Below are positions 39,208-44,672 of a DNA stretch of 64,000 nucleotides, piece after piece (position 1 is the first letter of the stretch; each line of letters begins with the position of its first letter). A program made the translations under genes and the position numbers. Location: positions 5,419,501 through 5,483,500 of the forward strand of contig NZ_JACMTR010000002.1 of the NCBI RefSeq assembly GCF_014267175.1, read 5' to 3'. The notes beneath the pieces are model-generated. The model did no database searches and was not told the origin of the DNA. It saw only the letters and a list, made by a program, of their open reading frames with translations. The DNA comes from Pseudonocardia sp. C8 (GTDB lineage Bacteria > Actinomycetota > Actinomycetes > Mycobacteriales > Pseudonocardiaceae).

Positions 39208-39483
39208 CTACCCGTTCGCCGGCGGGTCGGTCCGGGCCGGTGTGGAGCGCGGGCCGGGCAGGCGACCGAACCGCTGCTGGACGGCCTGCTTGCTGGTCCC
39301 GTACAGGGCACCGATCCGGGACCACGTGACCCCCGCGGCGCGGGCGTCACGGGCGGACTCCCACTCGATCTGCTCGGCCGCCTCACGGAGCTGCCGGGCG
39401 GCGTCCAGCACCTCCAGCGGGTCCGCCGATCGGGTCATCGCCCCGAGAGCCTTCTCGATGTGCCGCCGGGGACCCCGCGTCAT
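39208..39483 (-). CDS. Small helix-turn-helix protein
   Basis: A 91-residue protein. Residues 40-75 (WESARDARAAGVTWSRIGALYGTSKQAVQQRFG) form a clear HTH resembling homeodomain-like or sigma-region-4-type DNA-binding domains. The N-terminal 35 residues are a helix (LEVLDAARQLREAAEQIE) and the tail is Pro-rich. ATG at 39483 is 3 bp from an inverted repeat (39486-39502) repeated 48 bp further on, so autoregulation and control of the divergent micro-ORF are likely. Confidence 0.75.
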   Translation of the reverse strand: MTRGPRRHIEKALGAMTRSADPLEVLDAARQLREAAEQIEWESARDARAAGVTWSRIGALYGTSKQAVQQRFGRLPGPRSTPARTDPPANG

Positions 39484-39485
39484 TC

Positions 39486-39550
39486 GTCAACCATATCTTG
39501 ACACCTCGGGTGCGGCTGTTACGGTCGTCCGCCGTCAAGGTTTTGTTGAC
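39486..39550. promoter_or_regulatory. Two identical-architecture operators GTCAA-N7-TTGAC
   Basis: GTCAA-CCATATC-TTGAC (39486-39502) and GTCAA-GGTTTTG-TTGAC (39534-39550) have identical 5-bp arms and 7-bp spacers, with the conserved flanks C before and AC after. They are 48 bp apart. The first covers the -35 box of the promoter facing right and abuts the HTH gene start; the second lies just past the expected transcription start. This is repressor-loop-like geometry. Confidence 0.6.
39498..39525 (+). promoter_or_regulatory. Promoter of the lysine-rich micro-ORF
   Basis: TTGACA (39498-39503) is a perfect -35 consensus, followed by 16 bp and TACGGT (39520-39525), an acceptable actinobacterial -10. 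Transcription should start near 39532, giving a transcript of roughly 165 nt up to the terminator at 39654-39695. Confidence 0.55.
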
Positions 39551-39566
39551 ACTCGGAGGCGAGGGG

Positions 39567-39623
39567 GTGGGCCGCGTGGGCAAGAAGAAGAAGGACAAGA
39601 AGGACAAGAAAAAGAAGAAGTAG
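39567..39623 (+). CDS. Lysine-rich micro-ORF, 18 residues
   Basis: GTG at 39567, preceded by CGGAGGCGAGG, opens an 18-codon frame: Val-Gly-Arg-Val-Gly followed by thirteen residues that are all Lys except two Asp (KKKKDKKDKKKKK), then TAG. A GTG at 39576 would give 15 residues. Promoter, ribosome site and strong terminator surround it, so it is probably a transcribed unit of its own. The product would be an extremely basic peptide able to bind nucleic acid or membranes; alternatively the transcript acts as a small RNA or a leader whose translation senses lysyl-tRNA. No homologue is recognised. Confidence 0.5.
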   Translation: MGRVGKKKKDKKDKKKKK

Positions 39624-39653
39624 CAGGTGAGGCCGCCACGATGATCGGCGGTG

Positions 39654-39695
39654 GCGACGGTGGCGCCCGGCCCTGCGGTCGGGCGCCACCGTCGC
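39654..39695 (+). terminator. Strong terminator of the micro-ORF transcript
   Basis: Arms at 39654-39669 and 39680-39695 are perfectly complementary over 16 bp, and pairing can extend inward by 3 more (including a G-U) to leave a 4-nt loop. It is one of the strongest hairpins in the window and lies 30 bp after the micro-ORF stop. Confidence 0.8.
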
Positions 39696-39830
39696 ACGAG
39701 ACACCGGTCGATCCCTCCCACCGGGGATCGTCCACGACGTCGCCCGACCGCTCCCTCGGGTTGCCTTCCGGCGACGAGGAGACGAGCATTGTCCGGCATC
39801 GATGTGGCGTCGGACACAGTGAGGTGCGTT

Positions 39831-40256
39831 GTGGCGGGCAGGACGAGGACTTCGGACACGCAGGCCGACGACGAGGACACGAGAAACGGATCGAGCCGCT
39901 CCACCGGGAAGTCCGACGGCGGCGCGAAGGAGCGGCAGGGCGGTTCGCGTGGGTCCACGGGGCAGCGCACCGCGACGCTCGATCTTCCGTTCGTGACGGC
40001 GGAGTTCCGGGCCCCGAATCTTCATGTGCCGAACCGCGGCGACCTCGACGCGGCGGCCCGAGGAGCGTGGTCGATGCTGCCCTCCCGCAAGTCGATGCTG
40101 TTCCTCGGCGGGCTGGCGGCCACGGTGGCCGTCGGGATGATCGAATGGCCTGTGGCCGCGGCGATCGGGGTGGGAACCGCGCTGGCCGGTCGCTCCGGCT
40201 CCGAGCGGGAGGCCTCGTCCACGTCGTCCACGTCCGGTTCGGGCGACAAGGCCTGA
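39831..40256 (+). CDS. Small membrane protein upstream of the P-type ATPase
   Basis: A 141-residue protein. The N-terminal 60 residues are charged and Gly/Ser-rich (disordered), then VTAEFRAPNLHVPNRGDLDAAARGAWSMLPSRK leads into one hydrophobic hairpin (MLFLGGLAATVAVGMIEWPVAAAIGVGTALAG, about residues 88-120) and a Ser/Thr-rich tail. GTG at 39831 has GAGG upstream. It ends 57 bp before the ATPase start and may be an accessory subunit. No family is recognised. Confidence 0.65.
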   Translation: MAGRTRTSDTQADDEDTRNGSSRSTGKSDGGAKERQGGSRGSTGQRTATLDLPFVTAEFRAPNLHVPNRGDLDAAARGAWSMLPSRKSMLFLGGLAATVAVGMIEWPVAAAIGVGTALAGRSGSEREASSTSSTSGSGDKA

Positions 40257-40313: not shown

Positions 40314-43300
40314 ATGTGGCAACGCCTGATCGACGCGGCCGCCGGCACGATCGGCACCGTGGTCGGCGTGGCCGCGGGAGCGGCCGAGCTCGTCACCACC
40401 GCCGCCACCGGCGCCGTCTCGGCGGCACCCGGCCGGGTCCACGTCCGGATGCGCGGCGTGCACCTGCCCGGGGCGGCGGACCGGGTCGAAGAAGTGCTCC
40501 TCGCCCACGAGGCGGTGCACCGGGTCGAGGTGAACGCGGTCCTGGGCGACGTCCTGGTCGAGTTCGACCCGGAACGGGTCGACGGCGCCGCGGCGATACG
40601 GCTGGTCCGGGACGCCGAACGGACATGCGAGCTCACCACGGCCCCCCACGCGAGCCCGGACCATCCCGCCGACCCGGGCACGGTGCTCCGGGAGGCGACG
40701 CTGGCCGGGCTGAACGCAGTGGGAATGCTGGCTGCGGCGGTCGGCACGCCCCGGGTGCGGGCGCCGATCGGGTTTCCGCTGTCGGTGCTCCCGCACGTCG
40801 ACGCGTCTCCGGCCCTGCGCGCGGCGTTCACGAAGGTACTGGGCGAACCCCTGGCGGATCCGCTGCTGGGCGGGATCGCGGCGTTCTCCAACACGACCGG
40901 CCGCCGGCCGGTCGGCCTGCTCGTCGACGGTGTCCACCGCGCTGCCCGCCACACCGAGGCACGGGCCCGCCGCCGGTCCTGGACGGAGTGGGAGACCGGA
41001 CTCGCCGGCCGGGCCGGATCCCATCGCGCCACGGCAGTGCCGGCCGGTCCCCGCCCCGTCCCGCTACCGCCCGGCCCGGTGGAGAAGGTGGCCGACCGGG
41101 CTGCCGTCGCGACCCTCGCCGGGTCGGCCGCTCTGCTCGCGGCGACCGGCGCCACTCCCCTCGTCGACGCCGCACTGAGCGCCGGCCTGCCCAAGGCGGC
41201 GCGGGCGGGCCGGGAGGCCTACGCCGCCCGGCTCGGCCGTGATGCTGCCGTCCGGGGGTGCCTGGTCCTGGACTCGTCGGCGCTGCGCCGGCTCGACCGC
41301 GTGGACACGATCGTGCTCGACGCCGGGATCCTGCAGACCGGACGCCACGCCGTGGACGCGGTACTGCCGCTGACCGAGGACTCCGGCGCGGAACACTCCG
41401 AGCTCGTCGAGCGGGCGCACGACCTCGCCGATCCGCACCGCCCGGGACGGCGCCGCGGCCGGGACGGCTGGAGCATCGGGCCGATCGGCCGGGCACCGGC
41501 CGCGGCGGTGGCGGCGCGAGCCGCGGAACTCGCCGACCGGTCGTCCCGGGTGCTCGTGCTGCGCCACGGGGACGAACCCGTCGCGGTCGTGGGGGTGTCG
41601 GAGACGCTCGATCCGTTCGCCGAGGCCGTCGTGGCGGCGGCCGGTGAGTCCGGGCTCGTGCTGATCGGGGGCCCGGCCGATCTCGTACGACGCTCGGGGG
41701 GCGACGGTGCGGTGCCCGGCGGCGCAGCACTCGCCGGCTCCGTCCGCGAGCTCCAGCGCACCGGGCACGTCGTCGCCCTGATCGGTGGGAGGGACGCCGC
41801 ACTGGCTGCCGCCGATGTGGGGATCGGCATCGGCACGCCCGGATCCCGGCCGCCGTGGGGCGCCGACGTGCTGGTCCGGGACCCCGGCGAGGCGTGCCTG
41901 CTGCTGGGTGCCGTGGGCCCGGCCCGGCAGGCGAGCCTCCGGGCCGCGCAGCTCGCCGTGGCGGGCTCCGGGCTGGGTGCCCTGCTCGCCGTGCTCGGTC
42001 CACCGGGGCGCGCCGCCGCCCGGGCCGCCGTCGCCGTGCACGCGGCCGCACTGTGCGCGCAGGCCCTCGGGACCTGGTCGGCCATGGCGGTGGCCCGCCG
42101 CCCGGCGCCGATAGCGGCGGACCGGACGCCGTGGCACGCCATGTCACCCCGGGTCGTGCTGGACACGCTGAACAGCTCCCGCACCGGACTCGCCGAGGCC
42201 GAATGGCGGCGCCGCAGCCGCGAGCGCCCGCGGCAGGTCGGTCCGGAGGAGCTCGGGCTGGTCAGGGCCTCCGTGGACGAGCTGGCCAACCCGATCACCA
42301 CGACGCTGACCGCCGGCGCCGGGGTCTCGGCCGCGACCGGGTCGCTGCTCGACCCGATGCTGATCATCTTCGTGCTCGGGGTGAACGCCCTCATCGGCGG
42401 CGTGCAGCGGGTCAGCGCCGACTCGGCGCTGCGCACCCTGCACCACAGCAGCGCCACCCGGGTCCGGGTGCGGCGCGGCGCGGCCGACGAGGACCGCACC
42501 ACCGACGAGCTCGTGGACGGCGACGTGATCCGGCTGCAGGCCGGTGACTCCGTACCCGCGGACTGCCGGGTGCTGTCCGCGCACGACCTGGAGGTCGACG
42601 AGTCGTCGATGACCGGTGAGTCGGTGCCCGCGGCGAAGTCACCGCAGGCGACCGGCGCCCGCACGGTCGCCGACCGCCACTGCATGCTCTACGAGGGCAC
42701 CACCGTCGCCGCCGGACGCGGGGACGCGGTCGTCGTCGCGACCGGGGACCGCACCGAGGCCGGCCGGGTGCTCCGCGCGAACGGCGACCAGGCCCCGCCG
42801 ACCGGCGTCGAGACCAGGCTGCGCGAACTGACCGCCCGCATCCTGCCCGTCTCGGTCGGTGCCGGACTCGCGTTGATCGTGGTCGACCTGCTGCGCCGGC
42901 GACCGGCCACGGCCGCGCTGACCCGGGCGGTGAGCCTCGCGGTCGCCGCGGTCCCGGAGGGGCTCCCGTTCGTCGCGACCGTCGCCGAGCTCGCGGCCGC
43001 CCGCCGGCTCTCCCGGCGCGGCGCGCTGGTGCGCAACCCGTCGACCATCGAGGCGCTCGGACGGGTGAACGTGCTGTGCTTCGACAAGACCGGAACCCTC
43101 ACCGAGGGACGGATCAGCCTGCGCCGGGTCTCCGACGGGACCCGCACGGCGACCGTCGACGAGCCCCTGCCACCCGGCCTGCAGGACGTCGTCGCCGCGG
43201 CAGTGCGGGCCAGCCCGTTCCGGGCCGACCCGGCGCGGGTCCCCCACCAGACCGACCGGGCGGTCCTGCGCGGCGCCCACACGCTCGGCATCACCGCCGA

Positions 43301-44672
43301 CCACGGCCAGACCTCCGTCGAGCTGCTCGACGAGCTGCCGTTCGAATCGCATCGTGGCTACCACGCCGTGCTCTGGCGGGGCCGCGCCGGCAACCGGATC
43401 AGCGTCAAGGGCGCACCGGAGGTCGTCCTGCCGCTCTGCAGCACCCGCCACCGGCACGACGACGGCACGCGGCCGTTCGGCACCGACGACCGCGGCACGA
43501 TCGACGCCGAGATCCACCGGCTCGCCGGGGAGGGCCACCGCGTGCTCGCCGTGGCCGAACGACCCGCCCCCGACCACACCCGGCTCGCCGACGCCGACGT
43601 CGAGCAGCTCGAGTTCCACGGGCTCGTCGCGATGGTCGATCCCGTCCGCCCCACGGCCGCGCAATCCGTCGCCACCCTGCGCGGTGCCGGCGTCGAGACC
43701 GTCATGATCACCGGAGACCACCCGAGCACCGCCGAGTCGATCGCCGCCGAGCTCGACTCCGTCAACGGGCGCACCGTCGTCACCGGCCCCGACCTGGACG
43801 AGATGAGCGACGCCGAGCTCAGCGAGGCGCTGCCGCGCATCGCCGTCTACGCCCGGGTCAGCCCCGCCCAGAAGGCCCGCATCGTCCGCCTGTACCAGGC
43901 GGACGGCCACCCGGTGGCGGTCACCGGTGACGGCACCAACGACGCTCCGGCGATCCGGCTCGCCGACGTCGGCATCGCACTGGGCACCCACGCCACGCCC
44001 GCCGCCCGGGAGGCCGCGGACCTCGTCGTCACCGACGACCGGATCGAGACCATCACCGACGCCATCGTGGAGGGCCGCGGCATGTGGTCCTCGGTCCGCG
44101 ACGCCCTGTCCATCCTGCTCGGCGGCAACCTCGGCGAGGTCGCCTACACCGTGGGCACCGCACTGTTCGGCGGGACCGCCACCCTCAACGCCCGGCAGCT
44201 GCTGCTGGTCAACCTGCTCACCGACGTCCTGCCCGCCATGGCGGTCGCCGTCCGGCCGCCGCCCGACACGAGCCCCGCGGAACTGCTGGCCCACGGGCCG
44301 GAGGCCTCCCTCGGCACGTCCCTGACCCGGGACATCCAGGTGCGGGCGGCCATCACCGCGACCGCGGCTGCCGTGGCCTGGTTGCTGGCCCGGCCGGTGA
44401 GCACCCCGGGACAGGCCAGCACGACCGGCCTGGTCGCGCTGGTCGGCGGCCAGCTCGGCCAGACGCTCGCCGTGCGCGGACGCACCCCGCTGGTCGCCGT
44501 CGCTGTCGTCGTCTCGCTCGGGCTTCTCGCCGCCACCGTCCAGCTCCCCGGCCTCAGCCGGATCGCCGGCTCCACACCCCTGCTCCCCCACCAGTGGGCC
44601 ATCGCGCTCACTGCCAGCACGGCCGCGGCCGCGGCCCAGCTCGTGGCCCAGCGCCTGCTCACCACCGGCTGA
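40314..44672 (+). CDS. Giant CtpI-like P-type cation-transporting ATPase
   Basis: A 1452-residue membrane ATPase, roughly twice the usual length. The C-terminal half is a complete P-type pump: TGES (DESSMTGESVP), PEGLP in helix M4, the phosphorylation site CFDKTGTLTEG (Asp near residue 924), KGAPE, MITGDHPSTAESIA and VTGDGTNDAPAIRLADVG. PEGLP instead of CPC argues for Ca/Mg-like rather than heavy-metal transport. The N-terminal half has an HMA-like domain without CxxC (about residues 40-105) and a degenerate ATPase in which the catalytic motif has decayed (TIVLDAGIL). Mycobacterial CtpI has the same plan. The substrate is unknown. Confidence 0.9.
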   Translation: MWQRLIDAAAGTIGTVVGVAAGAAELVTTAATGAVSAAPGRVHVRMRGVHLPGAADRVEEVLLAHEAVHRVEVNAVLGDVLVEFDPERVDGAAAIRLVRDAERTCELTTAPHASPDHPADPGTVLREATLAGLNAVGMLAAAVGTPRVRAPIGFPLSVLPHVDASPALRAAFTKVLGEPLADPLLGGIAAFSNTTGRRPVGLLVDGVHRAARHTEARARRRSWTEWETGLAGRAGSHRATAVPAGPRPVPLPPGPVEKVADRAAVATLAGSAALLAATGATPLVDAALSAGLPKAARAGREAYAARLGRDAAVRGCLVLDSSALRRLDRVDTIVLDAGILQTGRHAVDAVLPLTEDSGAEHSELVERAHDLADPHRPGRRRGRDGWSIGPIGRAPAAAVAARAAELADRSSRVLVLRHGDEPVAVVGVSETLDPFAEAVVAAAGESGLVLIGGPADLVRRSGGDGAVPGGAALAGSVRELQRTGHVVALIGGRDAALAAADVGIGIGTPGSRPPWGADVLVRDPGEACLLLGAVGPARQASLRAAQLAVAGSGLGALLAVLGPPGRAAARAAVAVHAAALCAQALGTWSAMAVARRPAPIAADRTPWHAMSPRVVLDTLNSSRTGLAEAEWRRRSRERPRQVGPEELGLVRASVDELANPITTTLTAGAGVSAATGSLLDPMLIIFVLGVNALIGGVQRVSADSALRTLHHSSATRVRVRRGAADEDRTTDELVDGDVIRLQAGDSVPADCRVLSAHDLEVDESSMTGESVPAAKSPQATGARTVADRHCMLYEGTTVAAGRGDAVVVATGDRTEAGRVLRANGDQAPPTGVETRLRELTARILPVSVGAGLALIVVDLLRRRPATAALTRAVSLAVAAVPEGLPFVATVAELAAARRLSRRGALVRNPSTIEALGRVNVLCFDKTGTLTEGRISLRRVSDGTRTATVDEPLPPGLQDVVAAAVRASPFRADPARVPHQTDRAVLRGAHTLGITADHGQTSVELLDELPFESHRGYHAVLWRGRAGNRISVKGAPEVVLPLCSTRHRHDDGTRPFGTDDRGTIDAEIHRLAGEGHRVLAVAERPAPDHTRLADADVEQLEFHGLVAMVDPVRPTAAQSVATLRGAGVETVMITGDHPSTAESIAAELDSVNGRTVVTGPDLDEMSDAELSEALPRIAVYARVSPAQKARIVRLYQADGHPVAVTGDGTNDAPAIRLADVGIALGTHATPAAREAADLVVTDDRIETITDAIVEGRGMWSSVRDALSILLGGNLGEVAYTVGTALFGGTATLNARQLLLVNLLTDVLPAMAVAVRPPPDTSPAELLAHGPEASLGTSLTRDIQVRAAITATAAAVAWLLARPVSTPGQASTTGLVALVGGQLGQTLAVRGRTPLVAVAVVVSLGLLAATVQLPGLSRIAGSTPLLPHQWAIALTASTAAAAAQLVAQRLLTTG

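Follow-up and report, generated by a model that had tools for sequence, protein, structure and literature searches.

ClpC2 of the Rv2667 type is an autorepressor that also binds cyclomarin A. A CGTCAAC-n5-GTTGACG operator bound ClpC2 in gel shifts, and the DNA contact was assigned to its Clp-like C-terminal domain (PMC10030653). RelI is a small HTH protein and an antitoxin, with RelS located before it in one operon (PMC13284704). Gbn (SCO1839) is described as a small Actinobacteria-specific DNA-binding protein that recognizes GATC at thousands of sites (PMC9239103). The locus analysed here lies in a 64-kb stretch of Pseudonocardia DNA (the window). It resembles ClpC2 in the related HTH part of its protein, in the same palindrome, in tandem operators that overlap promoter elements and in a putative leaderless layout. 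Unlike ClpC2, the window protein is without Clp_N domains, and the module includes a divergent lysine-rich micro-gene. The window protein is similar in length to RelI, its best match among solved structures. However, directly before the window HTH gene are operators and a divergent gene that encodes only some 15 residues, not a RelS-type operon partner. Whereas Gbn binds GATC at thousands of sites, the window genome holds eight palindrome sites, and kinship of the window HTH protein with Gbn would be a guess. No description of such a peptide gene or operator string was found in the open-access literature and the few subscription papers covered. Judged from sequence, the polylysine mini-gene looks real and undescribed.

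The peptide gene, the HTH gene and their shared palindromes

The features of the locus are collected in Table 1. The profile of the HTH protein matched RelI (9sdc) with an E value of 3.1e-9 and the N-terminal HTH/dimer domain of ClpC2 (8ada) with an E value of 3.4e-5 over 40 positions. No Pfam or NCBIfam family matched the protein above its cut-off. A search for Clp_N domains in it found none; they were found in the L185 paralogue. In the predicted structure, four helices are followed by no further domain, only by a tail of low confidence, and a Foldseek search with this model gave no significant match. The -10-like TATGGT is located 6 nt before the ATG, consistent with a leaderless mRNA. The original prediction mentioned neither the HTH gene nor the operators, though these are the conserved partners of the peptide gene.

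Two GTCAA-N7-TTGAC palindromes separate the HTH gene and the peptide gene. Their motif equals the published ClpC2 operator near the start codon, with the inner C/G not always kept. The -10 of the peptide gene sits between both palindromes, outside either. The window genome contains 8 exact sites per strand, versus 2 for the reversed control, and two of the 8 lie ahead of a gene whose HTH product also carries Clp_N domains.

For the plus strand, the original prediction had proposed a self-contained unit for an 18-residue, lysine-rich micro-protein, with a promoter, a ribosome site and a strong hairpin. All of these elements are found in the sequence, and the unit is supported by conservation: the start and frame, the composition, the ribosome site and the operators all recur in relatives. 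The length is a different matter. The 18-codon frame is present and translates as VGRVGKKKKDKKDKKKKK, with 11 Lys and 2 Asp. Since the frame in the relatives begins at the codon directly before Gly/Ala-Lys-Lys, the second GTG is the likelier start, and the true product is probably the 15-residue peptide MGKKKKDKKDKKKKK. The A-rich lysine tract is as striking in this G+C-rich genome as had been stated: its G+C content is 42%, versus 73% for the 64-kb window, and a 27-base piece of it has a single occurrence in the 6.24 Mb genome, even allowing 3 mismatches. Among frames 10-30 codons long, the window has one in which Lys makes up 55% or more, and 20 mononucleotide shuffles had 0 each.

Past the stop codon, the arms of an inverted repeat (39654-39672 and 39677-39695) are 19 nt long and 95% complementary, with 16 bp perfect and a 4-nt loop; no T-run follows. 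The RNA from 39528 to 39710 folds with a z score of -3.84, and the 90 nt past the stop with a z score of -7.1. A strict E. coli-type promoter scan at the locus found 0 promoters, with 0 expected. An open frame at 39651-40256 on the plus strand, with no significant family match, lies ahead of the CtpI-like ATPase gene (40314-44672).

Table 1. Features of the locus, in window coordinates except for C1
Feature	Position	Strand	Details and basis
Divergent HTH gene	39208..39483	-	91 residues; probably represses itself; stand-alone protein related to RelI and to the HTH part of ClpC2; profile matches
Operator 1, GTCAACCATATCTTGAC	39486..39502		right half is the peptide-gene -35; contains the -10-like TATGGT of the HTH gene
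-10-like TATGGT of the HTH gene	39490..39495	-	read from sequence
-35 TTGACA of the peptide gene	39498..39503	+	read from sequence
-10 TACGGT of the peptide gene	39520..39525	+	TGt before it; 16-nt spacer to the -35
Operator 2, GTCAAGGTTTTGTTGAC	39534..39550		palindrome search
Purine-rich ribosome-binding region, GGAGGCGAGGGGG	39555..39567	+	GGAGG at 39555-39559
Frame as originally predicted	39567..39623	+	18 codons and stop, GTG 39567 to TAG 39623; read from sequence
Probable true frame	39576..39623	+	MGKKKKDKKDKKKKK, 15 residues; start aligned with relatives
Strong hairpin, probable terminator without U-tract	39654..39695	+	inverted repeat and folding
C1 gene at other loci	L170 from about 6214; L179 from about 2670; L082 upstream of the HTH gene		

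Conservation, co-occurrence and spread

The lysine tract and its start codon, whose conservation in close relatives the original prediction had made its test, recur in 18 of the 62 Pseudonocardia genomes as a peptide of the form M[GA]K(K/D/G/S)n with 10-19 residues. A DNA search with 39440-39720 gave matches in 27 of the 62 genomes, many of them to the hairpin or other lysine-rich DNA; several of the best matches span the lysine tract adjoining an HTH gene. The peptide copies of the genus were first found by this DNA search, a search for HTH orthologues and reading of the loci. Profile R1 was built afterwards from 17 sequences (G016, identical to G015, was omitted), so its matches among the genus copies, most of which it was trained on, arise by construction. 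The genus profile search matched 21 genomes, G028, G033 and G059 in the operator part only. In 14 of the 18 peptide-bearing genomes, including the window's, the frame is divergent from the HTH gene. The frames upstream of HTH orthologues have a start codon and a ribosome site, followed by Gly or Ala and then by Lys interrupted by Asp, Gly or Ser. In four genomes (G015, G016, G020 and G031) a peptide frame is found elsewhere than beside the HTH gene, and the second copy in G020 has 10 residues. Type I toxin peptides are small and hydrophobic; unlike them, the peptide frames encode mostly K, followed by G, D, A and S (K 216, G 26, D 25, A 12 and S 5 after the start codon in 20 frames). Frame lengths differ by whole codons between copies, and third positions vary (Ala GCG 6, GCC 4, GCA 1, GCT 1; Ser AGC 4, TCA 1).

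HTH orthologues, defined by a match below 1e-12, are present in 21 of the 62 genomes. Seventeen genomes have both the orthologue and the peptide, 4 the orthologue only, 1 the peptide only and 40 neither (Fisher p 1.3e-10, with kinship between genomes ignored). P. dioxanivorans CB1190 (L080) is one of the laboratory strains with the pair. G015, G016 and G020 have the two genes on separate contigs, yet two palindromes are retained at the promoter of the peptide gene. G031 carries a peptide gene with promoter-like sequence, no HTH orthologue and no palindromes. The co-occurrence, the operators at the moved peptide genes and the case of G031 together provide the best argument for control of the peptide gene by the HTH protein or ClpC2. 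The 4 of 21 genomes with an HTH orthologue and no peptide are counted against our best explanation.

No HTH orthologue locus is without palindromes: each of the 21 has 2-4, and in 8 of the 20 listed loci they are at -66, -45 and -19 from the script-chosen HTH start. Tandem sites occur in 47 of the 62 Pseudonocardia genomes, and the reversed control in none. The results of the tandem-site search of the 62 genomes were merged by hand into 61 array regions. Of these, 46 lie within 500 bp of an HTH match, 15 near a peptide gene and 12 near both. Another 12 are near neither, one of which (G011) is a clpC2 gene; 50 regions are thus near an HTH, clpC2 or peptide gene and 11 are without explanation. 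The operator pairs of the window and G054 are absent from this set because their sites are spaced wider than the pattern allowed. Sites of the GTCAATGATTCATTGAC type flank or precede a gene for 125 residues with an HTH-like end (SRQAAQAKW), in L182 at 6001 and 6537 (C2 2724146 and 2724682 of the window genome) and in L183 at 4001; similar arrays in several other genomes are without a known neighbor. Among 77 virus stretches with tandem GTCAA-N7-TTGAC, 8 (L213, L216, L218, L225, L237, L240, L251 and L262) encode an HTH relative no more than 300 bp away, which is possibly a phage repressor of the ClpC2/RelI-like kind.

TTGAC followed after 16-18 nt by TAnnnT is located upstream of 11 of the 18 first-collected Pseudonocardia peptide genes, including the window's, and of the Actinomycetospora peptide gene; it is missing in the other 7 and in the second G020 copy. 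A -10 within a palindrome, with TTGAC at 16-18 nt, is present in 9 of 20 peptide-gene copies, the window's not among them, and six further copies have TGnTAnnnT within a palindrome without TTGAC at that distance. Downstream of the stop codon, 12 of the 20 copies fold better than all 100 shuffles and 5 are equalled or beaten by 1 to 4 of 100; the remaining 3 are no better than ordinary shuffles (G054 11, G020b 12 and G027 23 of 100).

Most copies have the divergent HTH gene as a common neighbor; other common neighbors link small genome groups only. The linkage to CtpI that had been expected is not supported: it was seen in only 2 of the 21 loci compared, the window and G026 (L081). A further protein, C1, is undescribed and has roughly 100 residues. 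Its gene comes after the peptide gene and hairpin in G010, G051 and G057, and directly after the palindromes, with no peptide frame before it, in G015, G016, G020, G028, G033, G038 and G059; three of these seven carry a peptide gene elsewhere. A search of 5.8 billion proteins gave six that resemble C1, and none of the six has a Pfam domain. Row L170 of the C1 alignment (A3) looks misframed and was not used further.

The trio of HTH gene, 2-3 palindromes and a peptide of 15-22 residues was found in five genomes outside Pseudonocardia: in Actinomycetospora (L075), in G473 and G431 from another family of the same class, and in G905 and G1168 from another class of the same phylum. The finds outside the R1 training set are the 10-residue copy in G020, G473 and G431 (R1), and G905 and G1168 (profile R2, additionally trained on G275, G473 and G431). 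In the family scan, 139 of 297 genomes matched at an E value of 0.01, and the 11 best, with E values down from 4.5e-16, are all either full copies or ones already known. Among 19 of its loci that were read, the module is present at L100, operators with a longer protein are present at L101, L107 has no frame by our criterion and 16 are lysine-rich stretches in longer frames, many in a protein that we take to be Ffh. The class scan (394 genomes) matched 7, with full modules in G000, G473 and G431, a longer lysine-rich frame in G555 and 3 without such a frame; the phylum scan (396 genomes) matched 3, with full modules in G000 and G905 and 1 without; the scan of G905's class (399 genomes) matched 5, with full modules in G905 and G1168, a longer lysine-rich frame in G1353 and 2 without. 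The module is rare in the wide scans (3 of 394, 2 of 396 and 2 of 399, with the window's genome or G905 among those counted each time). These scans, like all those of more than 40 genomes, used stricter filters, and weak copies may be missed. In G473's family, 2 of 12 genomes matched, both already known; in Actinomycetospora, 2 of 18 matched, 1 with the peptide. A plasmid search gave 2 weak Streptomyces matches. The patchy presence and differing flanks suit horizontal transfer, and loss from an old ancestor may be an alternative.

Lysine-rich frames were also noted in other settings. G555 (L389 at 1532) has one of 35 residues and G1353 (L403 at 1575) one of 30, each with a ribosome site, an apparent hairpin past the stop and no operators. 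The virus loci scanned contain 39 lysine-rich frames by our criterion. In A+T-rich virus contigs (L268, L270, L275, L280 and others), in stretches of 28-47% G+C, there are mostly-lysine micro-frames with a ribosome site, for example MAKKKKKKGKKKNKKNKKKKR. These are without operators, unlike the window module, and the likeness lies in the ribosome site and the lysine-rich frame.

A proposed repressor-peptide module and its alternatives

The conserved frame, the HTH gene that it is paired with and the operators at the peptide promoter lead us to favor, with a probability of roughly 0.6, a two-gene module in which a ClpC2/RelI-like HTH autorepressor holds off a micro-gene for a polycationic peptide. 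The minus-strand HTH protein would bind the palindromes and repress both itself and the plus-strand peptide gene, as ClpC2 represses itself. The peptide gene would yield its own short mRNA, ending at the hairpin, and a signal that lifts the repressor would allow this mRNA to be translated into the nearly pure lysine peptide. The composition of the peptide makes a polycation role the only one that we can propose. Its anionic partner would most likely be RNA or the ribosome, which is a guess, with DNA, the membrane or polyphosphate as alternatives; a nucleic-acid-binding micro-protein, as originally suggested, is possible. That stand-alone HTH genes carry the ClpC2 palindrome argues that the HTH part reads it. 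Because the Clp-like C-terminal domain is absent from the window protein, the HTH part alone might not suffice for binding, and a local ClpC2 could be the binder of the window operators.

A toxin-antitoxin-like pair, with a growth-inhibiting basic peptide and a RelI-like HTH protein as its antitoxin and repressor, is in our view improbable, though worth keeping in mind. The small two-gene unit, its variable flanks and patchy distribution and the antitoxin role of RelI would fit such a pair. However, the HTH gene is preceded by its own operators and not by a toxin gene as in RelS-RelI, the two genes are apart in G015, G016 and G020, and the toxin reading is weakened by G031, which retains its peptide gene without operators or an HTH orthologue. 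Somewhat less probable still is that the RNA is the product that matters and the frame is incidental or secondary. The unit is short and ends in a strong hairpin that stands out from the shuffles in most copies. The hairpin sequence differs from copy to copy, however, and the conserved part of the transcript is the frame, with its in-frame length changes and varied third positions. A dual-function small RNA, as the original prediction also suggested, is conceivable.

The position of C1 behind the peptide gene and hairpin in three genomes could point to a leader peptide that attenuates a downstream gene, with the lysine codons as sensor. We consider this quite unlikely, since seven genomes have C1 behind the operators with no peptide frame between, and no downstream gene common to most peptide copies was found. 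The lysine-sensing leader of the original prediction fares no better: a search for a lysine riboswitch or other leader RNA gave no Rfam match at the locus, and the window has only two tRNAs. Least credible of all is that the frame arose by chance or is what decay has left of the end of a longer, lysine-rich protein. The weak matches in other genera are mostly lysine-rich parts of longer frames, as such an origin would have it, but the start, ribosome site, operators and partner of the peptide gene are conserved in distant genomes.

A broader form of the two-gene module is more tentative, and we would put it at somewhat less than even odds. Here, a stand-alone ClpC2/RelI-type repressor and a polylysine protein of 10-22 residues would constitute an undescribed module of Actinomycetota that travels as a unit and, in response to proteolytic or antibiotic stress, provides an inducible polycation with RNA or ribosomes as examples of its targets. 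With its operators, repressor partner and spread, the peptide gains interest beyond what the window alone could reveal. Genes of such shortness are easily missed by annotation. The module offers a sharp test of whether the ClpC2 operator can be read by the small HTH part on its own, and the ClpC2/RelI regulators, known from antibiotic response and growth control, would gain a new kind of target. If the module reading is true, the polylysine peptide would be among the simplest conserved proteins. That distant actinobacteria, with differing flanks, have kept a gene under apparent operator control for a peptide of almost nothing but lysine makes one ask what a polymer of such simplicity does in the cell.
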